64,000 nucleotides of DNA from Gemmatimonadota bacterium (GTDB lineage: Bacteria > Gemmatimonadota > Gemmatimonadetes > Longimicrobiales > Gaopeijiaceae): assembly GCA_028874905.1 (NCBI GenBank), contig JAPPGZ010000073.1, forward strand, positions 1 through 64,000, written 5' to 3'. Positions 19,663 to 50,221 of this stretch are shown here, one piece after another (the stretch's first letter is position 1; every line of letters begins with the position of its first letter). A program made the translations under genes and the position numbers. The notes under the pieces were generated by a model. It was not told the origin of the DNA and ran no database searches. It saw only the letters and a program-made list of their open reading frames with translations.

Positions 19663-20235
19663 ATGAGCAGCCAAGCGCCGCATCCACCCAGGGAAGAGAC
19701 CACCGGCACCAGCGGCCAGGCCCGCCGGGGCTTTCTTGCCGGGGCCGGAGCGATCGCGGCGGCCGGACTCGCCTTCCTCGCTCCCGTCTGGTCGGGCCTT
19801 CGCGTCGTGTTCGACCCGCTTCGGCGCACCGCAAGGGACCCGGCACTGGTTCCGGTCACGCGGCTCGCGGCCGTGCCCGCCGACGGTGTACCGCGAAAGT
19901 TCCGCGTCGTGACGGACCGGGTCGACGCGTGGAACACACAACGCAACATGCCGGTGGGCGCGGTCTACCTCCGCCGCACCGAGGATTCGCTGCAGGCGTT
20001 CAACGTCATCTGCCCCCACGCCGGCTGCTTCGTGAACCTGGCGGCCGACCACTCCCGGTTCGTGTGTCCCTGCCACAAGAGCAGCTTCGACCTCGAGGGC
20101 GCCGTCGACGACCCCGCAAGCCCGAGCCCCCGCGACATGGACGAGCTCGAAGTGGAGGTCCGTGAGGGGGACGAGATCTGGGTGCGGTTCCAGAACTTCC
20201 TTCCCGGCCGCTCCGACAAGACTCCGGTCGCGTGA
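19663..20235 (+). CDS. Rieske 2Fe-2S protein of a cytochrome bc complex
   Basis: A 190-residue protein. The twin-arginine signal RRGFLAGAGAIAAAG (from residue 21) doubles as a membrane anchor. Cluster ligands are C117 and H119 (CPHAGC) and C135 and H138 (CPCHKS), with the disulfide pair C122/C137 conserved. It takes electrons from quinol at the outer face and passes them to cytochrome c. The stop overlaps the cytochrome b GTG (GTGA). No strong ribosome-binding site is seen at 19663. Confidence 0.92.
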   Translation: MSSQAPHPPREETTGTSGQARRGFLAGAGAIAAAGLAFLAPVWSGLRVVFDPLRRTARDPALVPVTRLAAVPADGVPRKFRVVTDRVDAWNTQRNMPVGAVYLRRTEDSLQAFNVICPHAGCFVNLAADHSRFVCPCHKSSFDLEGAVDDPASPSPRDMDELEVEVREGDEIWVRFQNFLPGRSDKTPVA

Positions 20236-22100
20236 AATCGCTTCTCGCCTGGCTCGACGACCGGACGGGGTATCGGGCGATGCTCCGCAAGGCGCTCGTG
20301 GAGTCCATTCCAGGCGGAGCGAAGTGGCGCTACGTGTGGGGCAGCACGCTGACCTTCGCGATCGCCGTGCAGTTCGTGACCGGGGTGATCCTGTGGGCCG
20401 CGTACAGTCCCAACGCGCAGGGCGCCTGGGAGAGCGTCTACTACATCGAGCACGTGATGGCCGGCGGCTGGATGCTGCGCGGAATCCACCACTACATGGC
20501 CCACGCCACCATGATCCTGCTCGTCCTCCACCTCATGCAGGTGGTCGTGGCGGGCGCGTACAAGGCCCCCCGCGAGGTCAACTTCTGGTTCGGCATCGTC
20601 CTGCTGCACATCGTGCTCGGCCTGTCCCTGACAGGCTACCTGCTCCCCTGGGACCAGAAGGGCTACTGGGCGACCAAGGTGGCCACGAGCATCGCGTCGA
20701 TCACGCCGTTGGTGGGCCCGGCCATGCAGAAGGTCCTCGTCGGCGGCGCGGACTACGGCCATCTCACCCTGACCCGCTTCTTCGCGCTCCACGCGGGCGT
20801 GCTGCCGGGCGCGCTGATCGCACTGATCGCCGGCCACGTGTACCTGTTCCGGCGGCACGGGGTGACGACCGGGGGGCCCGGCGCGCAGATGGCCGATACC
20901 GGACCCGGGGCCGTGTTGGCGGGAGATGAGGGCGGCGATCCGGCCCCGGCCGCCGATGCGGCGCGGACCGGCCAGTTCTGGCCCGATCAGGCCCTGCGGG
21001 ACGCCGTGGCCTGCCTCGCGGTGACGGCGGCCGTGCTCTACCTCGTGATCCGCACGGGGGGAGCGCCGCTGGGGGGACCCGCGGACGCTGCAGAGCCCTA
21101 CGCGGCCGCGCGGCCGGAATGGTACTTCATGTTCCTGTTCCAGTGGCTGAAGTACTTCCCTGCGGGCACCGAGGTCATCGGGGCGATCGTGATTCCCGGG
21201 ATGGTGGTGACCCTGATCGCGCTGATGCCGCTGGCCGGGCGGTGGCGCCTGGGTCATCGCTTCAACCTGGGCCTGACGGGCGGCGTCCTCGCAGGCGTCG
21301 CGCTCCTCACCTGGCTGGCATACGCTCAGGATCGGGCCGACCCGGACTTCGTCTTCGCCCAGACCAACGCCGAAGCCGAAGCCGAGCGCGCCGTGGAGTT
21401 GGCCGGAGCGGGCGGCGGGATTCCCGCGAGCGGGGCTCTGGCGTTGCTTCGGGAGGATCCGCTGACCCAGGGCCCGCGTCTCTTCGCCGAGCGGTGCGCC
21501 AGCTGCCACACCTACGATGGCCATGACGGCATGGGACGCCCATTGCCGGAACCCCAGACCGCCGCCGACCTGAAACGGTTCGCCAGCCGGGAGTGGATCG
21601 AGGGGCTGCTGGATCCGGAGCGGATCGCCACGCCCGAGTACTTCGGCGGCACCGATTTCGCCCGCGGCCGGATGGTGCGGATGGTGCAGAGCCGGGTCGC
21701 CGGCTTCACCCACGAGCAGCAGGAGGATCTGGCCAAAGTGATCAAGGCCGTGTCGGCGCAGGCGGTGCTGCCGTATCAGGCGCAAGCCGACGAGGCGGAC
21801 CAGGCGGAGATCATGGAGGGCACGGCGCTGATCTCATCGGCGTCGGTCGGGTGCACCGAGTGCCACGAATTCCAGGATGTGGTCGAGCAGCCTCTCGGTC
21901 CGACGCTGACCGGGTTCGGGTCGGAGGAGTGGCTGACCGCGTTCATCCGCGACGCCTCGCACCCGCGCTTCTACGGCGACCGCAACGACCGCATGCCGGC
22001 GTTCGGCCCCGAGGAGATCCTCACCGACGAAGAAATCCGGCTGCTGGTGGACTGGCTTCGAGAGGATTGGCACCGAGGAGGGGAGGAGGGCGGGTCGTGA
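20232..22100 (+). CDS. Cytochrome b fused to a di-haem cytochrome c domain
   Basis: A 622-residue fusion. Residues 1-400 are cytochrome b with haem ligands H86, H100, H187 and H202; the 14-residue gap in the second pair is b6-like. The quinone-site motif PEWY is in RPEWYFMFLFQWL. The C-terminal 220 residues hold two CxxCH haem c sites, C422-H426 (CASCH) and C541-H545 (CTECH). With the Rieske protein this makes a compact quinol:acceptor oxidoreductase without a separate cytochrome c1 gene. It ends 24 bases from the convergent qhpE stop. Confidence 0.9.
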   Translation: MKSLLAWLDDRTGYRAMLRKALVESIPGGAKWRYVWGSTLTFAIAVQFVTGVILWAAYSPNAQGAWESVYYIEHVMAGGWMLRGIHHYMAHATMILLVLHLMQVVVAGAYKAPREVNFWFGIVLLHIVLGLSLTGYLLPWDQKGYWATKVATSIASITPLVGPAMQKVLVGGADYGHLTLTRFFALHAGVLPGALIALIAGHVYLFRRHGVTTGGPGAQMADTGPGAVLAGDEGGDPAPAADAARTGQFWPDQALRDAVACLAVTAAVLYLVIRTGGAPLGGPADAAEPYAAARPEWYFMFLFQWLKYFPAGTEVIGAIVIPGMVVTLIALMPLAGRWRLGHRFNLGLTGGVLAGVALLTWLAYAQDRADPDFVFAQTNAEAEAERAVELAGAGGGIPASGALALLREDPLTQGPRLFAERCASCHTYDGHDGMGRPLPEPQTAADLKRFASREWIEGLLDPERIATPEYFGGTDFARGRMVRMVQSRVAGFTHEQQEDLAKVIKAVSAQAVLPYQAQADEADQAEIMEGTALISSASVGCTECHEFQDVVEQPLGPTLTGFGSEEWLTAFIRDASHPRFYGDRNDRMPAFGPEEILTDEEIRLLVDWLREDWHRGGEEGGS

Positions 22101-22124: not shown

Positions 22125-22838
22125 TCAGCCGTCGGACTTCGCCCCCAGCAACCCCCGACAGACGTCCGGCGTCAGCGGACCGCTGAACCCCTCCACACGG
22201 CGCGCCAAAATGCCCGTCACGTTGGCGACCGCGAAGCTGATTCCGTTCAGGTTGCGCTCCACCGCCACGCCCGGGATCGGCCTGGGGTAGGGCGAGGCCG
22301 CGACCACCCAATCCCTGCCAGGACTCTCCACGTCTTCGCCCTGCCCGTGCTCCCGCACCTCCACGCATTCACGCGGGACTGCCGCGTCCATCACAACCCC
22401 CACCGCCGACGGCAACGAGCCCGGCCACCACTGTTGCCCGTCCGCTTCGGCCGCGGCCACCACCACGCCCCCGGCGCGCCCCAGCCGCTCCACTGCCTCA
22501 TTCAGCATGCCAGCATGCTCCTCGCGCAACGTCCCGAGGCTCAGGTTGACGACCCGGATGCGCCGCTCCACCGCCCAGTCGACCGCGGCGACCAGCGCCT
22601 GCATGCTGGTCCTCAGCCGATCCTCGAAGACGCGCACCGCGAAGATGTCGGCCGCCGGCGCCTTCTCCTGGATTGCGGCGAAGACCGCGGTGCCGTGGCC
22701 GAGCCGATCGACGTAGTCATGCGACACGTCTCCGGCGAGGTCGATCCGCACGCCCCCCGCGACGCCGCTCACATGCGGGTGATCCGGGTTGACGCCGCTG
22801 TCGATGACGGCGACGGTGACGCTGCGATCACCCACCAC
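22125..22838 (-). CDS. qhpE: QHNDH gamma-subunit maturation protease QhpE (subtilisin-like)
   Basis: A 237-residue S8 protease without signal peptide, so cytoplasmic. The triad is complete: D13 in VIDSGV, H48 in GHGTAV and S201 in NGISFAVAN. It is shorter than secreted subtilisins, as known for QhpE, which cuts the leader from the cross-linked gamma subunit. Its start overlaps the end of qhpF by 11 bases. It is the last gene of the cluster. Confidence 0.85.
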   Translation of the reverse strand: MVGDRSVTVAVIDSGVNPDHPHVSGVAGGVRIDLAGDVSHDYVDRLGHGTAVFAAIQEKAPAADIFAVRVFEDRLRTSMQALVAAVDWAVERRIRVVNLSLGTLREEHAGMLNEAVERLGRAGGVVVAAAEADGQQWWPGSLPSAVGVVMDAAVPRECVEVREHGQGEDVESPGRDWVVAASPYPRPIPGVAVERNLNGISFAVANVTGILARRVEGFSGPLTPDVCRGLLGAKSDG

Positions 22839-24477
22839 CCACCTCCACCACCCGGTCCACCCCCCGCAGCATCTCCTCCCGGTGTGTGATCAGCACGGTC
22901 GTCCTGCCCCTCATGACTTCGCGGTAGGCGCCCACCACGTGCGCCTGGGCCTCCGCGTCCAGCGCGCTCGTCGCTTCGTCCAGCACTAGCACGGCCGGAT
23001 CGGCCAGCAGCGCCCGCGCGATCGCCACGCGCTGCCGCTCGCCCGCCGAAAGCTGCCGGCCTTCCTCGCCCACCACCGTGCCGAGGCCGTCGGGGAGCCC
23101 CGCCACGAAGTCGCCCAGTCCCGCGCGCTCGACGGCCCGCATCACCGCCGCTTCGTCCGCGTCCGGCCGCGCGTACCGCACGTTCTCCAGGATCGAGGTG
23201 TTGAAGACGAATGCGGCCTGGTCGACAAGGGAGACATTCGTACGCAACTCCGCCAGGCCGATGTCCCGAACATCCCTCCCGTCCAGCAATACACGCCCTG
23301 AATCGGGATCGAGATGGCGGACGATCAGGTCGGCCACCGTCGACTTCCCACCCCCGGAAGGACCCACCAGAGCCACCACCTCACCCGGCGCGACGGTCAT
23401 CCCGAACCCCTCGAGCACCGCGCCGCCACGGCCGTGCCCGCACGACACGTCCTCGAAGACCAGCTCGCCGCGCACGGGACCCAGCGCGGCCGGCGACTCG
23501 GCGTCTGCCACCTCGATCGGCTCGTCGAGCAGCTCGTGCACGCGGCGCAGCGAGACCCGCGCGGTCGCGATCCCCGTGTACAGCCCCATGAGCCCCTGCA
23601 CCGGGCCGATCAGGCGCATCTGGTAGGCCATGAACGCGGTGAAGGTGCCCAGCGTGATCACGCCGCCGATCACGCGCGACCCGCCGTACAGGAACACCAC
23701 CGCCGTGCTGGCCGACAGCAGCAGCCCAGGCAGTCCGCCCGCCAGGTAGCGCAGCCGCTGCATCTTCATCAGCGAGTCCACGAACGAGTCGTTCCGCTCG
23801 CGGAATCGGGCTGCTTCGCGTGCGGCGGCGTTCGAGGCGGCGACCAGGCGGACCCCCCGCAGGGTCTCGATCAGGAAGGTGCCGATGTCGGCGCTGCGCT
23901 CGCGCATCACGCGGACGCGCACCTCAAGGCGGCGCCGGTAGCGCACCAGCGCCCAGATCGCGGGCGGCAGCAGCACAGCAGCGGCCAGGAACAGCCGCCA
24001 GTCGAGCCACAGCAGCATGCCGACCGTTCCCACCAGAAACGCCACGTTCCCCACCCACGCCAGCGCCGTGTCCGCGAGCACGCGCTGGATCTCGCCCACG
24101 TCGTTGTTGATCCGCGACATGATCTCGCCGAGCGGGGTGCGGGCGAAAAAGCGGGGCGACAGGCGCTGCAGGTGCCGGTAGACCGCGAGCCGCATGTCGA
24201 AGAGGATTTCGGCCGACACCTTCGTGTACCGCAGCCCGCTCGCCACGTTCAGGCCGAAGCTGGCGGCGGTGACGGCGAGGAAGAGGCCGACCACGCGCAC
24301 GAGTGCGCCGAGATCGCCGCCCAGGAGCGCATCGTCGACCAGGGTGCGGGTCAGGTAGGGCACGTAGAGGGCGAGTGCCGTGCCAACCAGGTTGAGTCCG
24401 AGAATGACGGCTAGCCGACCCCTGTAGGGGACAACGTAGGCGAGGCCGCGGCGGAGTTCGGGGTCCAGGATGGCCAT
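22828..24477 (-). CDS. qhpF: QHNDH ABC exporter QhpF
   Basis: A 549-residue half-transporter. The N-terminal 300 residues form a six-helix exporter domain, and the C-terminal ATPase has Walker A GPSGGGKST, signature LSAGERQRVAIARAL and Walker B VLVLDEATSALD. In characterised QHNDH clusters QhpF is needed to move the cross-linked gamma subunit, which lacks a Sec signal, to the periplasm. Position between qhpB and qhpE fits this role. The lipid-flippase branch (MsbA-like) is the alternative if context is ignored. Confidence 0.83.
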   Translation of the reverse strand: MAILDPELRRGLAYVVPYRGRLAVILGLNLVGTALALYVPYLTRTLVDDALLGGDLGALVRVVGLFLAVTAASFGLNVASGLRYTKVSAEILFDMRLAVYRHLQRLSPRFFARTPLGEIMSRINNDVGEIQRVLADTALAWVGNVAFLVGTVGMLLWLDWRLFLAAAVLLPPAIWALVRYRRRLEVRVRVMRERSADIGTFLIETLRGVRLVAASNAAAREAARFRERNDSFVDSLMKMQRLRYLAGGLPGLLLSASTAVVFLYGGSRVIGGVITLGTFTAFMAYQMRLIGPVQGLMGLYTGIATARVSLRRVHELLDEPIEVADAESPAALGPVRGELVFEDVSCGHGRGGAVLEGFGMTVAPGEVVALVGPSGGGKSTVADLIVRHLDPDSGRVLLDGRDVRDIGLAELRTNVSLVDQAAFVFNTSILENVRYARPDADEAAVMRAVERAGLGDFVAGLPDGLGTVVGEEGRQLSAGERQRVAIARALLADPAVLVLDEATSALDAEAQAHVVGAYREVMRGRTTVLITHREEMLRGVDRVVEVGGG

Positions 24478-24509
24478 TCAGCGCGCCTCCGGTCGGGGCT
24501 CGCCCCCCC

Positions 24510-25652
24510 TTACCCCGCCCGCCCCGTCCCCTCCGGAATCATGACAAAGCTTGTCATATCCGCGTCGAAGGTCACGGTCCGGATGAACTCGTAGGTAACG
24601 GCGTCGTAGACGTCGATCGTCGCGCCGGCGTTGTAGATGTACAGCAGCTCGCCGTTGGAGCTGACCTCCAGGCCCATGCGCGGACGCCCCGCAAAGCGCT
24701 GCCGGTTCTCGACGCGGCGGCCTTCCAGATCGAAGGTCCAGAACTCGTAGTTCCCGATCTGCTGCACCAGGCCGTAGCCCTTGTTGCCGCCGGGCGCGAG
24801 ACGGAAGCTGACCGGAGAGCTCGGCCCCAGGGTGAAGAAGTCGACATCCCGCTCCGCCAGGTTGACCCGCGCGATGCCCATCATGCGGCGGTTCTGCACG
24901 GGGTCGGTGAAGTTGAAGAGGCCGGTGTGGAAGCCCCTTTCGTCGTGCAGGCTGGTGGGGAACCCGAAGCTGAAGCGGCCCAGTCCCTCTTCGAACGGAC
25001 GCGAGAGGTCCCAGCGGTCCACTTCCGTGAAGCCCTCGGTCTCGAGCACGATGATACTGCCCCGGCTGAAGAAGTACAGGTACTCCCCCTCCGGCGAGAA
25101 CATGAGGCGCGCCCTGCGGCCACCTTCGCCCTCCGGCCAGGGAATAGTGTCGGTGACCGCCTTCTCCTCCAGATCGTACTTGAGCAGTACCGCTTCGTCG
25201 ATCTCCCAGCGGTCGATTCGCTTCGTGTACCGCATGGTGTTGAGGACGACGAATTCCTCAGCGGGGTCGACCTCCATCCCCCAGATCCGGACCTTCCGGT
25301 TCCCGCGGCTCAGGGTGAAGCTGTCGAGGGACCGGCGGGTGGCCACGTCGAAGATCTCGATCTCCTCGAACTCCGCGTCGCGGACGTAGATGCGCTCGTG
25401 ATTGGCGGACAGCGTCAGCCCGATCGGGATCCCGATGGACGTCTCGAACTCGTCCACGATTTCGAGCGAATTCTCGTCGATGACCTTGATCGAATGGTCG
25501 TACGCCGCCATGTAGATGACGCCGTTACCGCCGCCCTGGGCGTGGGCGGGGCTGGGGGTGCCGGCCAGGCCGACCAGCCCGGCGGTCAGAAGCGCCGCGC
25601 GGCCGATGGCCGGCGGGCGGGCGGGCCGTAGTAACAGGCTCGGACGTATCAC
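24510..25652 (-). CDS. qhpB: QHNDH beta subunit
   Basis: A 380-residue periplasmic beta-propeller subunit. The signal peptide ends near SPAHAQ, and propeller blades appear as repeated YD.. and V.DE.. strands (YMAAYDHSIKVIDENSLEIVDEFETSIG). This resembles the amine-dehydrogenase beta-chain and YVTN-like families. The GTG start at 25652 overlaps the gamma stop (GTGA). It sits next to gamma, as in known operons, and caps the CTQ site. Confidence 0.88.
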   Translation of the reverse strand: MIRPSLLLRPARPPAIGRAALLTAGLVGLAGTPSPAHAQGGGNGVIYMAAYDHSIKVIDENSLEIVDEFETSIGIPIGLTLSANHERIYVRDAEFEEIEIFDVATRRSLDSFTLSRGNRKVRIWGMEVDPAEEFVVLNTMRYTKRIDRWEIDEAVLLKYDLEEKAVTDTIPWPEGEGGRRARLMFSPEGEYLYFFSRGSIIVLETEGFTEVDRWDLSRPFEEGLGRFSFGFPTSLHDERGFHTGLFNFTDPVQNRRMMGIARVNLAERDVDFFTLGPSSPVSFRLAPGGNKGYGLVQQIGNYEFWTFDLEGRRVENRQRFAGRPRMGLEVSSNGELLYIYNAGATIDVYDAVTYEFIRTVTFDADMTSFVMIPEGTGRAG

Positions 25653-26041
25653 GGGAAGATCAGGTCGATCTTGCGCCAGTCCTTCTGCGCTGCGGCGCAC
25701 TTGCCGGTCCAGTCCGGCGCGTGGTTGAGCTGGTCCGGGACGTGAGCGGGCCAGAAGCAGGCCAAGTGGCAGTCGAAGAGGTCACGTTCGACGGGCTGAC
25801 AGAGTCCGGCGGTTCCCCCGGTCGAGTCCACTTCCCAACCGGGGGCGAACACAAGCGAGCACCCCAGCGGGATGTGCGGCCCCTCGCGGCTCTCCAAGCC
25901 GACGACGTCGAGGTCGCCCGGATCGGCGGGCAGGGGCGAGGGCACCGGCGCACCGCCCGCGGCCGCCGACCCGCCACCCGGCGGCGCGACATGCTCCTGG
26001 ATCCGCCGCGCCTTCTGATTGATGGCTTTCAGGTGGTCCAC
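25649..26041 (-). CDS. qhpC: QHNDH gamma subunit precursor (CTQ-bearing peptide)
   Basis: A 130-residue precursor. Counting from a constant offset of 54 to the Paracoccus mature numbering, all eight cross-link positions are present with no gap: C61-E70, C81-D87 and C95-D103 for the thioethers, and C91-W97 for the cysteine tryptophylquinone. The leader is about 54 residues with a Gly/Ala/Pro-rich stretch, about twice the 28 of Paracoccus. The GTG start at 26041 has a strong AAGGAGG about 8 bases upstream. No Sec signal is seen, consistent with export by QhpF after modification. Confidence 0.93.
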   Translation of the reverse strand: MDHLKAINQKARRIQEHVAPPGGGSAAAGGAPVPSPLPADPGDLDVVGLESREGPHIPLGCSLVFAPGWEVDSTGGTAGLCQPVERDLFDCHLACFWPAHVPDQLNHAPDWTGKCAAAQKDWRKIDLIFP

Positions 26042-26057
26042 TTGTCCGCCTCCTTCC

Positions 26058-27548
26058 TCATGATTCGAACTGCTCCAGGTACCCCGGGTTCTTGACCGCG
26101 ATCTCGCCGTAGACCTCCAGGCAGGTGTTGGTCCAGCTCCGGATCCAGTCGCAGTAGTGCAGGTTCGCCACGCCCGTGTCGCCGTAGCGCACGTGCGCTT
26201 CGTGATAACAGCCGCCGGCGCACAGCGGGCGCGCCCAGCATGTGCTGCAGTCGGTCTTGTTGGCCACGTGATGGTGTCCGAGGAACTCGAACTGGCGCTT
26301 GCGGTCGAGCCCGGTGTGCACCGACCCGATGCTGTGGTCGTCCGACCCCGCGAACCGGTGGCAGAGCGCCACGTCGCCGTCGGTGGCCACGCCCATCAGC
26401 CCCAGCCCGGCGCCGCACGGGAAGGCCTTGCTGACACCCTTGTGGATCTCCTCGATCGTGTCCTTGACGTTCGAGAACCCGTGGTGCCGGTCGTCGACCG
26501 CGAACTCGAGGAACTCCTGCGCCAGCTCCTCGAACTGGCCGAGCATGCGGTCGAACCCGGCGTCTTGAATAGCGTAGCCGCGGCCGTCGGCGGTCGTCAC
26601 GGGAGCGAACCCGACCTCCCAGAACCCTACCTCGTCGCGCAGATGGTGAAAGATGCGCGGGACGTCGAGGGTTTGGCGGGTGAGCGTCACGCGGGCCCCG
26701 ATCGGCCGCGTGCGGTGGCGCTCCAGCAGGCGCTTGATCTTCGGCAGGGCGTAGTCGTAGCTGCCCATTCCGTTCTTGAAGACGCGGAACTTGTCCTGCA
26801 TCTCCTTAGGCCCGTCGATGCTGACGGTGACGCCGATCCGGTTCTCGGCCAGCCAGTCGATCACCTTGTCGCGCAGCAGCGTGCCGTTGGTGGTCAGCGA
26901 GAAGTCGACATCCTTCCCCAACTCCACGGCGCGCTCGCGCGCGTAGGCCACGGTGCTCCTGAGGACCTTGAAGTTGAGCAGCGTCTCGCCGCCGAAGAAG
27001 GTGAGGTGCGCGACCGGCAGATCGCCCGACTGCTCGAACATGAAGTCGACGCTCTTCCGTGCGGTCTCCTCGCTCATGTAGTTGGGCGCGGGATCGCACG
27101 TGGTGTCGACGATCTTGTCCTCGCCGTACTCGTAGCAGTACGTGCACGCCAGGTTGCACTTGTTGGTGACGTTGAGGACCATCGTGGTGAGCGGGAAGTC
27201 CGCCTGGGGCAGTACCCGCGGGAAGGTCTGTTTCGGGGCCGTGGTGAGGCCGATCGCCTGCACGCGCACCAGCTCGGCCAGGCTCCGCCGCACGGCGGGT
27301 TCGCCGAAGCGGGGGGCGAGCGCGGTGACGAGGTCGTCTTCGCTCGCGGCACCCGCGTCGAGGGCCTGCAGAACCGCGACGGACGGCTCGTCGAGGTAGA
27401 AGACGGCGGCCGACGGCACCAGGTAGAGGAAGGTCTCGCCCGCCGCCTCGAATGGGTGGAACTCGCGCTGGGCGAGGAAGACGGGGTCGGCGGCGCTGGC
27501 GCCGTTGCTGGCGGTCCCCGGCGTGCCGGTCGTTGCCCCCGCGCTCAT
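26058..27548 (-). CDS. qhpD: Radical SAM/SPASM peptide-modifying enzyme QhpD
   Basis: A 496-residue enzyme that forms the Cys-Asp/Glu thioether bridges in the gamma subunit. Residues about 25-100 look like a PqqD-type leader-recognition domain. The radical SAM cluster is C131-x3-C135-x2-C138 (CNLACTYC). C-terminal SPASM cysteines follow in CGAGLGLMG...ALCHRF and CSTCWARPLCAGGCYHEA, giving two auxiliary clusters. The ATG at 27548 overlaps the alpha stop (ATGA), and it sits directly upstream of gamma, its substrate. Confidence 0.92.
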   Translation of the reverse strand: MSAGATTGTPGTASNGASAADPVFLAQREFHPFEAAGETFLYLVPSAAVFYLDEPSVAVLQALDAGAASEDDLVTALAPRFGEPAVRRSLAELVRVQAIGLTTAPKQTFPRVLPQADFPLTTMVLNVTNKCNLACTYCYEYGEDKIVDTTCDPAPNYMSEETARKSVDFMFEQSGDLPVAHLTFFGGETLLNFKVLRSTVAYARERAVELGKDVDFSLTTNGTLLRDKVIDWLAENRIGVTVSIDGPKEMQDKFRVFKNGMGSYDYALPKIKRLLERHRTRPIGARVTLTRQTLDVPRIFHHLRDEVGFWEVGFAPVTTADGRGYAIQDAGFDRMLGQFEELAQEFLEFAVDDRHHGFSNVKDTIEEIHKGVSKAFPCGAGLGLMGVATDGDVALCHRFAGSDDHSIGSVHTGLDRKRQFEFLGHHHVANKTDCSTCWARPLCAGGCYHEAHVRYGDTGVANLHYCDWIRSWTNTCLEVYGEIAVKNPGYLEQFES

Positions 27549-29278
27549 CGCTCGTTCCCCATGTCCGAGGTCCGCCGCCGCGGGATCGGCATCTCCTGCA
27601 CCCGCCACGGTTCCCAACGCATGTAGAGCGGCACCGTGACGATCAGATGGGCGCGCCCCCGCACCTCCTTGCCGTCCGGGCCGCGGTAGGTCGCCACCGT
27701 CCAGACGTCGCCGACGTTGTTGCGCAGGCCGTCGCGGTTCGGATTGGGGCCGTCCAGCGCCGGCTGGAAGAGACCGTCGGTGCCCAGCGTGCCCACGTAT
27801 TCGATGTCGTCGTCGTCGAAGATCGCGGAGTACTCTTCCATGGACCACTCGACGTCGACGAAGCCGAGATTCAGATCGTCGTCCGTCTCGGGCTTCCCGT
27901 CGGGGCCGTCGCTGAACGCGGTGGCCTCGAACTGCGCGAAGCCCTTCGGGAAAGCGCCGCCACCGAGCCGCGCCATGCCCGCCTCGGGCGTGACCAGGAT
28001 CCGGTCGACGGTTTCATAGACCGTCAGGTGGCCGGGCACCGGACGACCCGCCAGGAACACGTCCCGGGCGCCCACCGCGGCATTGTCGCTCGCGGTCACC
28101 TCGGCGGCCAGGACCTCGGAGTCGCTACGCGCCACGCTCACGACCTCGACGCCAGGTCCCAGGTCCAGGTCCGCGGTGCCCAGGCCGGTGGGCAGGTTGA
28201 CGCCGTGGACGGTGACGGTCGTGGTGCTGCCCGAGCGCATGGCGACCGGGTGGAGACCCAGCACGACCGGCCCGTCCGCGCGCAACAGCGTTACGTCGGG
28301 CCCGAACTCGTCGTAGTCGCCGGCGAACCAGCGACCGTTGATCTCGCCCCAGCCGCGCTCAACCATCATCACTTCGCGGAGCACGCTCATCGCATCCGCG
28401 CCCTCGAAGGAACGGCCGCGCCACTGGTAGCCCGTGTAGATGATCGCGCGGCCCTCGCGCTCCACCTGCTCGCCCGACCGCGCGTACGCATAGCTAACAC
28501 GGGTCGTGAAGTCGGCCCCGTCGGCCGCTTCCGAAATCTCGACCATGCCGTAGATGGGCCCCTTGCCGGGATCGTGGCCCTTCAGCGCCCAGGTGCCCGC
28601 GAGGCGCGGCGGCCGCATCGTCGCCGACCACGAAGTCCACTGCGCGGTCGTCAGGGGGAACTTGCCCGACAACTCGGCCACCGCCTTGTCCATTGGCTGC
28701 CGCGTGTCGGTCGCGCCAGGGGCGGGCGGGCCGAAGCGGCGGAACCCCTGCGTGTCGGAAAGGGGGTAGTAGCCCCGGTGCATGGCCATGAGGAGATCCC
28801 ACTCTTCCTTCGTCCTGCGCTGGATGACGACCCGCCCCATCGAGTGACAGCTGCTGCACACCCGATCGACGTCCTCATCCCCCTCATGCGACTCCTCGTA
28901 CGACCAGTCGATCAGCCGGCGCTCCACCTCGAAGCGGCCCGGGCGGAGTTCTTCGGGCGCGAGTCCGTGGCTGTCGGAGAGGTAGCGGACGATGTCGCGC
29001 GCGACCTCCGGATCCAGCTCCACGTCGTTGAGGGTCACCATGCGGCGAATCGACTGCTGCCAGCCCTCCGGGGTCTTCCGCATGTAGGAGACCCGCGTCA
29101 TCATGCCGTCGTCGTCGACCGCGTGGCAGCGGTCGCAACTGTCGATGACGAGCTGGTCGGTGACGGGGATACCGGTGTTCGTGGTGTCGGCGCCGGACTC
29201 TTGGGCGGAGGCGAACGCGGGCGCCAGCAACAACAGCGGGACCGCCGCTCCGCCGACCTGGAGTGCGAGGCGTTTCAT
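27545..29278 (-). CDS. qhpA: QHNDH alpha subunit, di-haem cytochrome
   Basis: A 577-residue periplasmic subunit. The signal peptide ends near AFASAQ, and two haem c sites are C48-H52 (CDRCH) and C141-H145 (CSSCH). Downstream there are beta-rich domains (IgG-like repeats), as in the known alpha subunit. It carries electrons from the CTQ of gamma to an external acceptor. The start at 29278 is chosen because the signal peptide begins there; the in-frame Arg-rich extension is unlikely. The adjacent cytochrome b-c may be a downstream partner. Confidence 0.92.
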   Translation of the reverse strand: MKRLALQVGGAAVPLLLLAPAFASAQESGADTTNTGIPVTDQLVIDSCDRCHAVDDDGMMTRVSYMRKTPEGWQQSIRRMVTLNDVELDPEVARDIVRYLSDSHGLAPEELRPGRFEVERRLIDWSYEESHEGDEDVDRVCSSCHSMGRVVIQRRTKEEWDLLMAMHRGYYPLSDTQGFRRFGPPAPGATDTRQPMDKAVAELSGKFPLTTAQWTSWSATMRPPRLAGTWALKGHDPGKGPIYGMVEISEAADGADFTTRVSYAYARSGEQVEREGRAIIYTGYQWRGRSFEGADAMSVLREVMMVERGWGEINGRWFAGDYDEFGPDVTLLRADGPVVLGLHPVAMRSGSTTTVTVHGVNLPTGLGTADLDLGPGVEVVSVARSDSEVLAAEVTASDNAAVGARDVFLAGRPVPGHLTVYETVDRILVTPEAGMARLGGGAFPKGFAQFEATAFSDGPDGKPETDDDLNLGFVDVEWSMEEYSAIFDDDDIEYVGTLGTDGLFQPALDGPNPNRDGLRNNVGDVWTVATYRGPDGKEVRGRAHLIVTVPLYMRWEPWRVQEMPIPRRRTSDMGNER

Positions 29279-29405
29279 CCGGTGGGATCGTCTCCGTCTG
29301 CGGGTGTCGTGAGCCAGCGGCCGCCTTCTCCTGCGACCCATTGATTTAGCACGGGGCCCCGACGCGCGTCAAAAGTCGCTGGCATCAGCGCGCCACCCCC
29401 CGGCA

Positions 29406-30938
29406 TCAGGGCGCCGTACCCGGCACCAGCACCCCGTCGGCGATTAGCAGCGCCACCACGCCCAGGAAGTTGGCCAGGTCGACCGGCGGCAGATCCTCAC
29501 GCGCCGCCCACTCGGAATAGGACTCGTAGAGGGCGCCGGGATTCGCCGAGCCCGTGGCCAGATGGACGACGCGGAGCAGGTCCACATCCCGGAAATAGCG
29601 CACGCCGCCGGGGAAGCGCGGGGTGACCAGCGCCGGGGCCAGCCGGATCCGGTTTCCGATCACCAGGGGCCGGTCGGCGGTATCGCGGCGACCGACGCGG
29701 AGCCGTCCCGATCCCAGACGCAGGGCGTGGAAGGCCGCACGCACCTCGGGGTCGTCGCGGAGCGCTTCGGCGGATGGGCCGTCGGGCAGGTTCGCGGCAT
29801 CCTCAGCCCCGGATCGATCCACGAGCCAGCGCGCGCGCCGATCCCAGAAGGCGTCGTCGGGTACCGCCTGGGTGCCAGCCACCTGCGTCGCCAGCCCCTC
29901 CCGCAACGACTCGTACATCGCCTGCTCCCGGCGGCCGTAGAAGTCGGCCGCGGTCCCAGCCAGCTCCGGCGTGCGGATCGCGGTGTTGACCGTGACCGCA
30001 GCCAGCCACGCCGAGGCCAGCGCCTTCTTCACCCCATACGACGACATCGGGTCCGCGAACGAGGCCGCGTCTCCCACGAGCAGCCCGCGGCCCGACGCGA
30101 ACCGAAACGACGTATACATCGACGCGGTCACCGCCCAGGCGTCACCGACAGGCACGGCGGGAGTTGTGATCGAGTGCATGAGGGCGGTGTTGGCGATCTC
30201 GGCCTCGAAGGCAGCCGAGAGATCGGCGGCCCCCTCCATGACGGCGTGGAGTTGAGGGTCCAGCATGACCGCGACATGACGTTCGGTCTCCGAGGTGGGC
30301 ACCGACCACGCCCAGCCACGCCCGAAGCTCTCCACGAGGGCGTGGGTGGCAACCACGTTCTCCCACCGGCTGTCGTTGCGGTACCGCCGAACCACGGCCA
30401 GCGTCGGCGCTTCCGATTCCAGGACCCGGTAGCGCCGTGCCAGCACGCCGACCCTGCCGGTGCAGTCGAGTATCCAGCCCGGTCGGACCTCGACGCGCTT
30501 CCCCCCGTCCAGCGCGACCTCGACCCGCCACCCCTCCCCGTCCGCGTCTCGTTCCGGCAACCTGGCCACGCCCCGCACGATCTCCGCCCCGGCCTCCACC
30601 GCCGCCCCGCGCAGCACGTTGTCGAACCGCGACCGCAGGATGTGGAACCCGGCGGCGCCCCCCGCGAAATCGTCACGGCGGCCCTCACCGCCCCACAACG
30701 CGGTGTTCCCGCTGTTCGCGAGGAATCCCCCCGCCTCCACCACCCCCAGCAGCCCCGTTGCGGCCAGCACCTTGCGCGCGCTCGGGGGCAGCGATTCGGC
30801 CAGGGACGGCGCGGCCAGGTCAGGGGCCGGCGACCGCTCGACGACCACGGCCTCCAGGCCCCACCGGGCGAGGAGGCGGGCGGCCCCGGCACCAGCCGGG
30901 CCGCCACCGAGGATGAGGACTTGGGAGGTTGGATTCAC
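29406..30938 (-). CDS. qhpG: FAD monooxygenase QhpG for CTQ biogenesis
   Basis: A 510-residue flavoprotein. The FAD motif GGGPAGAGAARLLARWG lies at the N-terminus, and GRGLLVGDAASFADPMSSYGVKKALASA is the second FAD (GD) motif typical of tryptophan-halogenase-like monooxygenases. In known systems QhpG dihydroxylates the gamma tryptophan before CTQ closes. The GTG start at 30938 (VNPTSQVLILGGG) is chosen because the family starts just before the Rossmann motif. It precedes qhpA by 127 bases and is the first gene of the cluster. Confidence 0.88.
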   Translation of the reverse strand: MNPTSQVLILGGGPAGAGAARLLARWGLEAVVVERSPAPDLAAPSLAESLPPSARKVLAATGLLGVVEAGGFLANSGNTALWGGEGRRDDFAGGAAGFHILRSRFDNVLRGAAVEAGAEIVRGVARLPERDADGEGWRVEVALDGGKRVEVRPGWILDCTGRVGVLARRYRVLESEAPTLAVVRRYRNDSRWENVVATHALVESFGRGWAWSVPTSETERHVAVMLDPQLHAVMEGAADLSAAFEAEIANTALMHSITTPAVPVGDAWAVTASMYTSFRFASGRGLLVGDAASFADPMSSYGVKKALASAWLAAVTVNTAIRTPELAGTAADFYGRREQAMYESLREGLATQVAGTQAVPDDAFWDRRARWLVDRSGAEDAANLPDGPSAEALRDDPEVRAAFHALRLGSGRLRVGRRDTADRPLVIGNRIRLAPALVTPRFPGGVRYFRDVDLLRVVHLATGSANPGALYESYSEWAAREDLPPVDLANFLGVVALLIADGVLVPGTAP

Positions 30939-47511: not shown

Positions 47512-47814
47512 GTGTCCGAAGTCACCGAGAAAGCCGTCCGCAACGCTCTCAAGACCGTCAAGGACCCGGAACTCAATCTGGACCTCGTGGTGCTCGGGCT
47601 GGTGTACGACATCGAGATCGAGGGCAGTAGCGCAAAAGTCGCAATCTCGCTGACGACGCCGATGTGTCCGGCCGCCGGCCAGATACTCGAGGAGGCCCGC
47701 GAGGCCGTAGCCGGCGTGGAGGGAGTCGAGGACTCCGAGGTCGAGCTGACCTTCGACCCGCCATGGACTCCGGAGCGCATCAGCCCCCTGATCCGCTCCG
47801 CGCTGGGGATCTAG
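47512..47814 (+). CDS. MIP18/SufT-family (DUF59) metal-sulfur assembly protein
   Basis: A 100-residue single MIP18 domain: VRNALKTVKDPELNLDLVVLGLVYDIEI, TTPMCPAAGQILEEAREAV, DPPWTPERIS. The family helps to insert iron-sulfur or other metal sites. It starts 63 bases from the phosphofructokinase and 16 bases before paaA, and it is the first of two MIP18 genes flanking paaA. Confidence 0.85.
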   Translation: MSEVTEKAVRNALKTVKDPELNLDLVVLGLVYDIEIEGSSAKVAISLTTPMCPAAGQILEEAREAVAGVEGVEDSEVELTFDPPWTPERISPLIRSALGI

Positions 47815-47830
47815 CCAACGGGAAAGCGCC

Positions 47831-48769
47831 ATGACGCCTTACACGGAAGACGAACTGAAGAAGAAGATCCGGGGCGGATACATTCTCGAGTCGCCCGAGG
47901 AGATGACGCCCGGCTACAGGAGGGCGCTCATCGTGCAGCTGACCGTCCAGGCGGACACCGAGCTCATGAGCGCCCCGGCCTACTGGTTCGCCGCCCGGCA
48001 CGCGCCGTCCACCAATACCCAGGTGAGCGCGCACGCGATCATCCAGGACGAGCTGGCCCACGCCAACATCGCGTACCGGCTGCTGGAGGACCTCGGCGTC
48101 TCGAAGGAGCAGCTCGTCTATGGACGCGAACCGCACGAGTTCAAGCACCCTTACGGCTTCGACCAGCCGCTCGACAACTGGGCCGAACTGGTCGTGGCGA
48201 ACGGGTTCTTCGACCGGGCGGGCATCTGCCTGCTGGGCGACGTGCATCGCAACACTTCCTACGGGCCCTTGAAGCGCGCACTGGTCAAGGTCGACATGGA
48301 AGAGACCTTTCATCTTCGCCACGGAGAGGTCTGGATGCGCCGGCTGGCACGCGCCGGAGGGGCCGCGACCGAGTTGCTGCAGCGCTGCGTCGACTGGATG
48401 TTCCCGATGACCATCGAGTGGTTCGGCCTGCCGGACGACCTCAAGCATCACAGCGGACAGCTGGACTACAAGCTCAAGGGGTTGACGAACGACGAACTCC
48501 GGCAGGTGTGGATGTCGTCGACGGTGCCGCTGTGCGAGAGCCTGGGACTGTCGGTGCCCGCCCACTACGACGAGGACGGCGACGAGTACGTGCTGGAATA
48601 CCCCTTCCCGTGCGAGTACGACCCCGACGCCAAGCGCTGGCTGTTCGAAGACGGCGAAATCACGTGGCAAGCCGTGTTCGAGCGCTGGAAGGGTCGCGGC
48701 CCGATGAACGAGATCTACGTGGATTCGGTGCGCAGATCGCGCGGGTCGGTGACGTCGTGGCTGAATTGA
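47831..48769 (+). CDS. paaA: Phenylacetyl-CoA epoxidase catalytic subunit PaaA-like
   Basis: A 312-residue ferritin-like di-iron protein. Iron ligands appear as E44, E74 and H77 (QDELAHA) and E157/E158 and H161 (EETFH). PaaA/PaaC pairs oxidise CoA-linked aromatic rings. The length is close to E. coli PaaA (309). It is followed by paaD, paaB and paaC homologues. No PaaE reductase and no ring-cleavage genes occur nearby, so the CoA substrate may differ. Confidence 0.85.
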   Translation: MTPYTEDELKKKIRGGYILESPEEMTPGYRRALIVQLTVQADTELMSAPAYWFAARHAPSTNTQVSAHAIIQDELAHANIAYRLLEDLGVSKEQLVYGREPHEFKHPYGFDQPLDNWAELVVANGFFDRAGICLLGDVHRNTSYGPLKRALVKVDMEETFHLRHGEVWMRRLARAGGAATELLQRCVDWMFPMTIEWFGLPDDLKHHSGQLDYKLKGLTNDELRQVWMSSTVPLCESLGLSVPAHYDEDGDEYVLEYPFPCEYDPDAKRWLFEDGEITWQAVFERWKGRGPMNEIYVDSVRRSRGSVTSWLN

Positions 48770-49227
48770 TGCAGTCGGTGGTCCCCGGCAAGGCACGCCA
48801 GGGGCCGGTCCGGCGACGGCGCTCGCTGGCCACCATCCTCGCCGGCCAGCCCGCCCCGGCCGTTCACGCCTCGGGGGGCCGCGACCGGTGGTCCGCGCCG
48901 CTGAGCGAGGCTCCCGCCGACAAGGAAGCGGCGCTCAGGGCCGCTCTCGGCGAGGTACTGGACCCGGAACTGCCGATTTCGCTGCTGGAACTGGGCCTCG
49001 TGTACGGCGTCGGTTTCGACCGCGGCACCGCGCGCGTGGATCTCACCTTCACCGCCACTGCCTGCCCCTGCATGGACTTCATCAAGCAGGACGTGCGCGA
49101 TCGGGTCGGCATGGAGCCCTGGGTGGACACGGTCGAGATCAACGAGGTGTGGGATCCGCCGTGGACCACGGCCAGGATGACCGACGAAGGCAGGCGGAAG
49201 CTGCGACGCTTCGGGGTGGGCACATGA
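48769..49227 (+). CDS. paaD: PaaD N-terminal (MIP18) part
   Basis: A 152-residue protein equal to the first domain of PaaD: ALGEVLDPELPISLLELGLVYGVGFD, TATACPCMDFIKQDV, WDPPWTTARMTDEGRRKL. In E. coli PaaD this domain is followed by a zinc ribbon in the same protein. Here the ribbon is separate, at 50227. The ATG overlaps the paaA stop by one base (TGATG), and the end overlaps paaB. Likely helps to load the di-iron site of PaaA. Confidence 0.82.
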   Translation: MQSVVPGKARQGPVRRRRSLATILAGQPAPAVHASGGRDRWSAPLSEAPADKEAALRAALGEVLDPELPISLLELGLVYGVGFDRGTARVDLTFTATACPCMDFIKQDVRDRVGMEPWVDTVEINEVWDPPWTTARMTDEGRRKLRRFGVGT

Positions 49228-49469
49228 GAACGGGCCTGGGCGAGGACGTCTACGAGGTCTTCGCCCGCAAGAACCGTGGCGAGCCGTTGCGTCACATAGG
49301 GTACATCGACGCACCGGGCGACGAACTGGCGCGCGTCTACGCCTGGAAGACCTACGACGAAGAGAACTGGTTCGAGATGTGCGTGGTCCCGCGCGGCGCG
49401 GTCATTCCGGTCAACCGGGTGGAGGGGCCGTGGGCTGGGAACGTGCCGGAGGGGACTCACGGGCCATGA
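49224..49469 (+). CDS. paaB: Phenylacetyl-CoA epoxidase subunit PaaB-like
   Basis: An 81-residue protein slightly shorter than E. coli PaaB (95). The PaaB core is YEVFARKNRGEPLRHIGYIDAPG and ALARVYAWKTYDEE-like sequence ending in WFEMCVVPRGAVIPV. It bridges the PaaA-PaaC subcomplexes in the known enzyme. Overlaps with both neighbours suggest tight co-translation. Confidence 0.82.
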   Translation: MRTGLGEDVYEVFARKNRGEPLRHIGYIDAPGDELARVYAWKTYDEENWFEMCVVPRGAVIPVNRVEGPWAGNVPEGTHGP

Positions 49470-50221
49470 CCCCCGCACCCCTCGCGCGCCACATACTGAG
49501 TCTCGCGGACACCAAGCGACTGCTCGGCATCCGCTACAGCGACTGGCTGCTGGGAAGCCCCTCGATCGAAACGGGGATCGCCGCCTCGTCCATGTCACAG
49601 GACGAGTGGGGCCATGCGCGGCTTCTCTACGCCATGCTCAAGCGCCTGGGGTTCGACCCGTTCGAGGTCGAGCACGAGCGACCGGCGGCCCGCTACTATT
49701 CGGCGCCCGCGCTGGACCGTCCCTTCAGCGACTGGGCCCACTTCGTCGCAGCCGTGGTGGTGGTCGACGGCGCGCTATCGGTTGCGCTCGAGAGCTTCGC
49801 GAGCGGGAACTTTGCGCTCGCACGCTCGCGCGTCCCCAAGATGCTCGCCGAAGAGGCGTATCACCGCCGCTTCGGCACGGCGTGGTTCACCCGTCTTGCA
49901 GCTGCCGGGGGCGAGGGCGCGGCACGCCTGCGGGATTCCGCCGGGGCCATGCTGCCCACGACCCTCGCGTGGCTCCTCCCGGCCGACGATGCCCACGACG
50001 CCCTGGTGGCCGACGGGAACGTCTGGCCGGAGGATCGTGTCCGTGACCAGTGCAGCCGACTGCTGGGCGGCACGCTCGCCACCGCCGGGATCGACCTGGA
50101 CGCGGTCGAGCCCGCACGCGACGGATGGGATCCGGAGCGCCGCAGAGGCTCCGGAGCACCTGGCGAGGAAGCCGTGGAGCGGGCGCGGGGAGATCGGAAC
50201 CGCGACCTCTTCGTGGAGTAG
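49466..50221 (+). CDS. paaC: Phenylacetyl-CoA epoxidase structural subunit PaaC-like
   Basis: A 251-residue ferritin-like protein close to E. coli PaaC (248). The ligand-like motifs are QDEWGHA (E47, H50) and LAEEAYHRRFG. It pairs with PaaA in the heterodimer. The ATG at 49466 overlaps the paaB stop (ATGA). It ends 5 bases before the zinc-ribbon gene. Confidence 0.83.
   Translation: MTPAPLARHILSLADTKRLLGIRYSDWLLGSPSIETGIAASSMSQDEWGHARLLYAMLKRLGFDPFEVEHERPAARYYSAPALDRPFSDWAHFVAAVVVVDGALSVALESFASGNFALARSRVPKMLAEEAYHRRFGTAWFTRLAAAGGEGAARLRDSAGAMLPTTLAWLLPADDAHDALVADGNVWPEDRVRDQCSRLLGGTLATAGIDLDAVEPARDGWDPERRRGSGAPGEEAVERARGDRNRDLFVE

Follow-up and report, generated by a model that had tools for sequence, protein, structure and literature searches.

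A quinohemoprotein amine dehydrogenase gene cluster of a second, Gemmatimonadota and Acidobacteriota lineage, with a predicted fourth thioether in the gamma subunit

The stretch of 64,000 nucleotides of Gemmatimonadota DNA analyzed in this study (the window) carries at 22125-30938 a qhp gene cluster that most likely encodes a quinohemoprotein amine dehydrogenase (QHNDH) of a second lineage, that of Gemmatimonadota and Acidobacteriota, in which QhpD is predicted to make a fourth thioether, Cys61-Asp72, in the gamma subunit. From the sequence comparisons, we assign this reading a probability of about 0.6. The small subunit of this variant would thus probably have one more crosslink than those of the known enzymes. 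QHNDH outside Pseudomonadota is not rare, and the new part is the variant. The initial annotation had proposed a seven-gene QHNDH set on one strand, comprising alpha, beta, gamma, QhpD, QhpE, QhpF, and QhpG, in a Gemmatimonadota host. Both proposals were confirmed: the host is a Gemmatimonadota bacterium and not a proteobacterium, and the key subunits match QHNDH families.

Gene products of the qhp cluster

All seven genes are open and lie on the minus strand in the order G-A-D-C-B-F-E, with tight spacing (intergenic gaps of 127, −4, 16, −4, 32, and −11 bases along this order). The features are as follows.

22125..22838, minus strand: QhpE, subtilisin-like leader protease (NF049966, 156 bits; cut-off 165)
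22828..24477, minus strand: ABC exporter in the QhpF position (ABC_membrane, ABC_tran, place in the cluster)
24510..25652, minus strand: QhpB, divergent beta-propeller subunit (hhalign, 1jju_B profile match, AF2 and Foldseek)
25649..26041, minus strand: QhpC, gamma precursor of 130 aa with a long variable leader linker (NF037958, 116.5 bits; cut-off 50)
25664..25666, minus strand: gamma Asp72 codon, predicted acceptor of the fourth thioether (codon check, alignment)
25697..25699, minus strand: gamma Cys61 codon, fifth cysteine (codon check; not present in any of the 10 classical gammas examined)
25751..25753, minus strand: gamma Trp43 codon, CTQ tryptophan (codon check, alignment)
25769..25771, minus strand: gamma Cys37 codon, CTQ cysteine (codon check, alignment)
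26058..27548, minus strand: QhpD, radical SAM/SPASM thioether-forming enzyme (TIGR03906, 557 bits; cut-off 453)
27545..29278, minus strand: QhpA, alpha subunit (TIGR03908, four Pfam QHNDH alpha domains, 1jmx_A)
29406..30938, minus strand: QhpG-like FAD monooxygenase (peptidyl tryptophan dihydroxylase), GTG start (NF049967, 217 bits; cut-off 240)

The alpha subunit matches TIGR03908 with 461.9 bits (cut-off 274), all of the QHNDH domains I-IV as four Pfam domains, and 1jmx_A with an E value of 3.8e-75; its only cysteines are those of the two CxxCH haem sites, CDRCH and CSSCH. QhpD, whose gene adjoins that of gamma, contains CNLACTYC, and its seven C-terminal cysteines lie in the same contexts as in classical QhpD. 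The best NCBIfam match of QhpG is the QhpG family, and it matches PDB 7ctq with an E value of 6.5e-15, where the halogenase CmlS and others rank higher. QhpE scored slightly under its cut-off and retains all of the Asp, His, and Ser motifs. The exporter is MsbA-like by family, and its identity as QhpF comes from its place in the cluster alone.

The beta subunit reaches only 29.8 bits with TIGR03907 (cut-off 223), and its sequence has diverged to the point that a single-sequence search found no solved QHNDH beta even at E values up to 1. This hinted at an unrelated propeller, which was ruled out by three concordant lines of evidence. Profile-profile comparison (hhalign) gave 99.9% over 311 columns to QHNDH beta, a profile search found 1jju_B at 6e-16 (ranked after a general surface-layer propeller), and the AF2 model (pLDDT 86.9) had 1jju_B and 1jmx_B as Foldseek PDB ranks 1 and 2. 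By sequence profile and modeled fold, beta is a propeller subunit of the QHNDH family. The scores of QhpG, QhpE, and above all beta under their family cut-offs count against our reading of the cluster.

The gamma subunit aligns without gaps to 1jju_C and 1jmx_G, and the CTQ and crosslink residues C7, E16, C27, D33, C37, C41, W43, and D49 are all kept. They include the sites of the three known Cys-Asp/Glu thioethers, with the pairing of the residues presumed. For tagged QhpC, PMC7876137 gives masses of 14,875.5 (linear) and 14,869.4 (crosslinked), in line with a loss of about 6 Da for three bonds. The AF2 model of gamma (pLDDT 50) was too poor for use. Among the relatives of the window, the length of the gamma precursor ranges from 107 to 144 aa, and the leader residues N8, K10, A11, and V46 are identical in 43/43 rows; the variable stretch of the leader is read as a linker. 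The long leader was considered as the mark of a different system and rejected, because its length varies in relatives and parts of it are kept.

Compared with the QHNDHs of Paracoccus denitrificans and Pseudomonas putida (qhpABCDEFGR; 1JJU, 1JMX), the window shares a two-haem alpha with domains I-IV, a propeller beta, a gamma with the residues for CTQ and the crosslinks, both QhpD and QhpE, an exporter, and a QhpG-like enzyme. It differs in having a fifth gamma cysteine together with an acid at residue 72, Phe in place of Trp at gamma 42, a longer variable leader linker, and a beta beyond single-sequence recognition, and no QhpR-type gene was found nearby. According to PMC7876137, the qhp operon includes qhpR. 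Two regulators from classical clusters, searched against the 147 loci collected here (E 1e-6), matched only three of them (L048, L050, and L051) and nothing near the window cluster; QhpR is no part of the enzyme itself. The initial annotation had mentioned neither the fifth cysteine, the divergent beta, and the long leader nor the lack of a nearby QhpR-type regulator. The adjoining cytochrome b/c fusion (20232-22100) was rejected as a member of the system, since it occurred in 0 of 25 relative loci, the flanks of which were limited.

Cys61, Asp72, and the predicted fourth thioether

Of the 70 gamma columns, only 61 and 72 separate the gammas with C61 from the classical ones. In the 88 distinct gammas with C61, residue 72 is D in 87 and E in 1, whereas the 10 classical gammas have A61 and, at residue 72, Q (six) or G (four). 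The latter 10 are from plasmids of four Pseudomonadota genera, with chromosomal Pseudomonadota lying outside the sample. Both PDB gammas are also without C61 and without an acidic residue 72, and the solved QHNDH structures that we found are Pseudomonadota enzymes. The gammas of L169 and L197 contain C61 and D72, yet they show at most 71% identity to classical gammas and at most 59% to those of the window's lineage. In all of the sequences examined, C61 came with an acid at residue 72; the gamma cores were gathered by a pattern search over the fetched loci, which counts fitting gammas only, and the relatives from the genome scan were the 80 nearest to the window of at least 588 matches.

A disulfide of Cys61 with another subunit is unlikely, since four cysteines are all that 60 of 75 alphas contain, and 61 of 79 betas are free of cysteine. 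There are exceptions (15/75 alphas and 18/79 betas), but most alphas and betas offer no conserved partner cysteine, and the inter-subunit disulfide was therefore rejected. Because QhpD makes Cys-to-Asp/Glu thioethers, we infer that the pair forms a fourth crosslink.

It is possible, though less likely, that we are dealing with an ordinary, three-thioether QHNDH, in which Cys61 is free or has a lineage-specific structural role and the acidity of residue 72 serves packing or contact with alpha. The three known sites are intact, and, as judged from the QhpD trees, the C61/D72 contrast could stem from one or two old changes that were passed on together. However, such a view has to accommodate that the only two separating columns of 70 hold one cysteine and one acid, which occur together on two gamma backbones, and that the cysteine, present in 88/88 and partnerless in most alphas and betas, would be an unusual free thiol for an exported protein. 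Two points weigh against the fourth thioether: the contrast at these positions rests on few evolutionary events, and the acidic residue 72 may have another cause.

Following the known route, the product would be a periplasmic quinohemoprotein amine dehydrogenase. QhpD would bind the QhpC leader and form the Cys-to-Asp/Glu thioethers, including the fourth between Cys61 and Asp72; QhpG would dihydroxylate gamma Trp43 with O2; QhpE would cleave the leader; and QhpF would export gamma. Gamma is then expected to assemble with the di-haem alpha and the propeller beta, and CTQ would oxidize primary amines and pass the electrons to the haems.

Distribution and phylogeny of the cluster

The initial annotation had implied that such a system is rare outside Pseudomonadota, and this did not hold. 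Gamma was found over the cut-off in 74/395 Gemmatimonadota and 28/396 Acidobacteriota genomes, and the qhp operon occurs in >1300 bacterial species according to PMC7876137. All seven window genes were matched in 59/147 loci; many of these loci are short, some represent the same region twice, and five are on plasmids. Genes of the relatives were called by codon usage, with a simple caller that had been trained on the window, and tblastn matches were used where the caller failed.

Trees were built for QhpD only. The window falls in a Gemmatimonadota group of 20 rows (support 100/99) placed among Acidobacteriota, while the four Pseudomonadota rows lie far away, with a long branch between the classical rows and those of Gemmatimonadota and Acidobacteriota. 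A recent transfer of the cluster from Pseudomonadota to this genome is highly improbable. It is true that QHNDH genes do move, since a set of the acidobacterial type is present on a plasmid of Novosphingobium sp. RL4, but the single, well-supported Gemmatimonadota group and the long branch argue against it, as far as the tree reaches. So does the spread of the genes: QhpD is over the cut-off in 19/23 genomes of the window's genus, and gamma was matched in 20/138 Gemmatimonadota genera, in one of these under the cut-off. As TIGR03906 also matches 12 of 14 control genomes under the cut-off, only QhpD matches over it were counted. The Novosphingobium plasmid (NZ_CP141945.1) carries A, D, C, B, F, and E of the window's lineage with C61 and D72; it has no neighbor matching the QhpG of the window, and a very divergent, shorter flavoprotein-like gene (331 aa) is located between B and F.

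A UbiU/UbiV-like pair in acidobacterial relatives

In some relatives, QhpG seems to be replaced by a UbiU/UbiV-like pair (U1-U2), which is absent from the window. In 5/31 gamma-positive Acidobacteriota genomes, U1-U2 is in the qhp cluster and QhpG is not there; in one of the genomes analyzed (G914), no QhpD was seen near gamma. U2 matches PF01136 (U32) with 116 bits and the UbiU family with 88.6 bits (cut-off 440), and for U1 neither Pfam nor NCBIfam gave a family match, so that of the two partners only U2 has the U32 domain. In alignments of four sequences each, the conserved cysteines fit CX6CX11CX44C (U2) and CXnCX18CX3C (U1). With the O2-independent hydroxylases UbiU-UbiV, as described in PMC6747719, the pair shares two adjacent genes, PF01136 (in U2), and cysteine motifs. 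It is unlike them in that U2 is far under the UbiU cut-off and has further conserved cysteines, U1 is without a family, the cysteine spacings differ in part, and the genes are located in qhp clusters. The occurrence of U1-U2 in place of QhpG suggests that the cofactor may be made independently of oxygen.

We consider it less likely than not that the pair is unrelated to CTQ and is located there by chance. All seven genomes with U1-U2 among the 396 Acidobacteriota drawn are gamma-positive, compared with 28/396 overall (hypergeometric 4.1e-9, with kinship ignored; G400 and G650 are closely related); the draws for gamma and for U1-U2 were taken as one set, as genomes listed in both agree. The profile that detected the pair in these seven genomes matched 0/395 Gemmatimonadota genomes. 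The QhpD rows of the genomes with the pair in the cluster form no single group but require four label changes, at least two of them forced by well-supported branches, in a tree in which one outgroup row (L052) is very long and many forks are weak. Moreover, stand-alone pairs have no common neighbors, save between two near relatives. A chance location would nevertheless agree with the 4/7 pair-bearing genomes of the draw in which U1-U2 is encoded at a distance from the qhp cluster, which itself contains QhpG, and with L208 and L210, two of the five cases with the pair in the cluster, where alpha and beta are not alongside. In these five genomes, a QhpG could also be encoded elsewhere; in G664, another contig gives a 190-bit flavoprotein match.

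We tentatively propose, with somewhat less than even confidence, that the QHNDH found outside Pseudomonadota represents the fuller form of the enzyme, having four gamma thioethers, and that the C61-D72 pair was later lost in the studied enzymes. The tryptophan would be dihydroxylated by the O2-using QhpG, as in the window, or by the UbiU/UbiV-like iron-sulfur pair, as in some Acidobacteriota, where CTQ formation would not need oxygen, and both routes would be kept in some bacteria.

QHNDH serves as a model of CTQ as well as of thioether formation by radical SAM enzymes, and a fourth crosslink made by QhpD, if true, would reveal how this enzyme selects its sites. If the UbiU/UbiV-like pair replaces QhpG, the O2-independent hydroxylases would gain a new type of substrate in peptidyl tryptophan, and the maturation of CTQ enzymes could do without oxygen.

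The amine dehydrogenase cluster and its divergent subunits

The initial annotation described a quinohemoprotein amine dehydrogenase (QHNDH) cluster in the window, and this reading is correct. All seven genes that it named are complete and are packed in an operon-like manner on the minus strand, with intergenic gaps of −11 to 127 bases.

Genes of the qhp cluster in the window
29406-30938, minus: QhpG, flavin monooxygenase
27545-29278, minus: QhpA, alpha subunit
26058-27548, minus: QhpD, radical SAM enzyme
25649-26041, minus: QhpC, gamma subunit
24510-25652, minus: QhpB, beta subunit
22828-24477, minus: exporter in the QhpF position
22125-22838, minus: QhpE, protease

The alpha and gamma subunits and QhpD score above the curated cut-offs of their families. 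QhpE and QhpG fall short of theirs by about one-tenth or less, and beta is far below its own and was therefore examined by three further routes. Profile-profile comparison with seven classical (Pseudomonadota-type) betas gave a probability of 99.9% over 311 aligned columns. A beta profile search of the PDB sequences recovered the betas of both solved enzymes (1jju_B, 6e-16; 1jmx_B, 5e-15), both ranked behind a general surface-layer propeller, and the two best fold matches of the predicted structure (mean pLDDT of 86.9) were QHNDH betas. The window beta is a divergent QhpB.

The window gamma can be aligned ungapped with the two solved gammas. It retains Cys37 and Trp43 of CTQ, along with the Cys and Asp/Glu positions that form the three thioethers in the residue pairing that we take these to have. 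The alpha subunit has two CxxCH sites and no cysteines elsewhere. QhpD shows the radical SAM motif together with seven C-terminal cysteines, whose contexts are those of classical QhpD, and the Asp, His, and Ser motifs are present in QhpE. The CTQ residues are named as Cys37 and Trp43 in PMC7876137. The window enzyme represents a QHNDH variant rather than a novel type of system. Its occurrence beyond the classical hosts, as claimed, was confirmed; such occurrence is no novelty in its own right, since the same paper already reports the qhp operon in >1300 species.

Convergent with the cluster are a Rieske gene and a gene for a fusion of cytochrome b with cytochrome c domains (19663-22100); 25 relative loci were searched for the fusion gene without a match. 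In a close relative (L042, genome G016), two or more QhpG-like stretches lie upstream of the cluster. PaaA-, PaaC-, and PaaD-like genes of the phenylacetyl-CoA epoxidase type (47512-50221) are located about 17 kb away from the amine dehydrogenase, and a PLP amino-acid decarboxylase (51656-53119) about 21 kb away, all below cut-offs. These genes hint at aromatic amines as the substrate.

Host, spread, and the QhpD tree

The QhpD tree that had been proposed was built with 48 rows kept of 86 after removal of near-copies. The window lies inside a group of 20 Gemmatimonadota rows (support 100/99), and the host is of Gemmatimonadota, as suggested earlier. Acidobacteriota rows are placed around this group, and four classical rows are set apart by a long branch; the tree draws on the 80 nearest of at least 588 relatives, so that sequences intermediate between the window's lineage and the classical lineage may be absent from it. 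QhpD is above the cut-off in 19 of the 23 genomes of the window's genus (window included), and gamma is above it in 74/395 Gemmatimonadota and 28/396 Acidobacteriota genomes. At the genus level, 20 of 138 Gemmatimonadota genera have a gamma match, one of them below the cut-off.

At least 588 relatives were found in a collection of genomes at species level, and the nearest 80, which were kept, are titled as Gemmatimonadota or Acidobacteriota groups save four: L082 (Rhodospirillaceae) and L091, L092, and L097 (Gammaproteobacteria). We counted the BD2-11 clade (L090) with Gemmatimonadota, where we assume it belongs. The four titles look mislabelled, because the gamma of the L091 genome agrees in contig number and position with the gamma of G396, a member of the window's own family.

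Novosphingobium sp. RL4 has a QHNDH set of acidobacterial type on a plasmid (L047, NZ_CP141945.1), in which a divergent flavoprotein-like gene of 331 aa separates B from F. In the tree, this set and a Bryobacterales row nest together, suggesting a transfer into Pseudomonadota. In L052 (NZ_CP088279.1) and similar Rhizobium/Mesorhizobium plasmid matches, QhpD-like radical SAM genes adjoin an annotated tryptophan 7-halogenase or FAD-dependent monooxygenase; the L052 annotation names no QHNDH subunit. In eight genomes of the window's genus (L022, L023, L030, L035, L037, L039, L041, and L043), one family of large genes has members next to qhpD or in the interval from A to D, antiparallel to qhpD, and the one scanned (L035 10857-14093) has ankyrin repeats by Pfam.

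A fifth gamma cysteine

Residues 115 and 126 of the window gamma are Cys61 and Asp72 in mature numbering, and neither was found in the classical gammas examined. Cys61 and an acidic residue 72 occur together in 80/80 loci among the best 80 of at least 588 relatives. The 98 distinct gamma cores from all fetched loci comprise 87 with C61/D72, 1 with C61/E72, 6 with A61/Q72, and 4 with A61/G72, and positions 61 and 72 are the only ones among 70 gamma columns that separate the C61 set from the rest. C61 and D72 are also present in one gamma each of the Acidobacteriota genomes G782 and G811, which adjoins a classical-type beta and has at most 71% identity to classical gamma and at most 59% to the window's lineage. 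Most alphas and betas examined offer no cysteine partner for C61. According to PMC7876137, QhpD links Cys to Asp or Glu inside the gamma peptide, and a fourth thioether is therefore the simplest reading; judged from sequence, C61-D72 is a predicted crosslink. The predicted gamma structure was too poor to use for this pair. One gamma (L025 1-641, genome G004) has Trp at the Cys27 position, so that loss of a known thioether is expected; this could be an assembly error.

A UbiU/UbiV-like pair in Acidobacteriota relatives

No QhpG was seen in the clusters of five Acidobacteriota genomes, G782 (L208), G811 (L210), G908 (L211), G694 (L214), and G664 (L226). Two genes, U1 and U2, there come after C or B and are followed by the exporter or protease.

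U1-U2 pair in relatives
L208 10201-12188, also in L210, L211, L214, and L226: U1-U2 pair in qhp clusters without visible QhpG

U2 is a U32 protein (PF01136, 116 bits) whose nearest named relatives, UbiU and TrhP, are both far under cut-offs. U1 has no family match, but four cysteines are conserved in it, in an arrangement resembling that of UbiV. PMC6747719 and the review PMC11574389 describe O2-independent hydroxylation by UbiU-UbiV. U1 occurs in 7/396 Acidobacteriota genomes, all seven gamma positive (hypergeometric 4.1e-9) and all with U2 adjoining.

Among 31 gamma-positive Acidobacteriota genomes (28 from the phylum draw and a further 3 from a class draw), the QhpG profile matches at 227 bits or more on the gamma contig in 19 and on another contig in 2; 4 have a weak flavoprotein match alone, about 4 kb from gamma, 5 carry U1-U2 in a cluster that shows no QhpG, and G914 is in none of these groups. 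Of the five genomes with U1-U2 in the cluster, G664 has a flavoprotein match of 190 bits on a different contig, and no match in the other four exceeds 73 bits, which leaves some chance of a QhpG elsewhere in these genomes. Four of the 19 (G400, G512, G588, and G650) also have the pair away from the qhp genes, with no neighbors in common beyond one closely related couple; this fits either parallel O2-dependent and O2-independent routes or a role of the pair unconnected with qhp. G782 and G811 have two gamma genes each, one in a set of A, D, C, and B with a classical-type beta (L207, L209) and one in a set of D, C, U1, U2, F, and E in which alpha and beta are absent (L208, L210). In the tree, the QhpD rows from clusters with U1-U2 are spread over more than one group (four changes, at least two forced by well-supported branches). 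U1 was found in 0/395 Gemmatimonadota genomes, the window's included, and the window itself carries QhpG. From gene content and arrangement, U1-U2 is likely to be an oxygen-independent alternative to QhpG in these relatives.

In the open literature, no paper was found that joins "tryptophylquinone" with "peptidase U32". A description of this QHNDH lineage or of a fourth thioether was likewise not found in the available parts of a mostly open-access literature, outside papers that name a phylum and an amine dehydrogenase (e.g., PMC4417212, PMC6662431, PMC11312239, and PMC12124388). What makes the window QHNDH of interest is the fourth crosslink predicted for it and, in related genomes, an alternative that is likely independent of oxygen.
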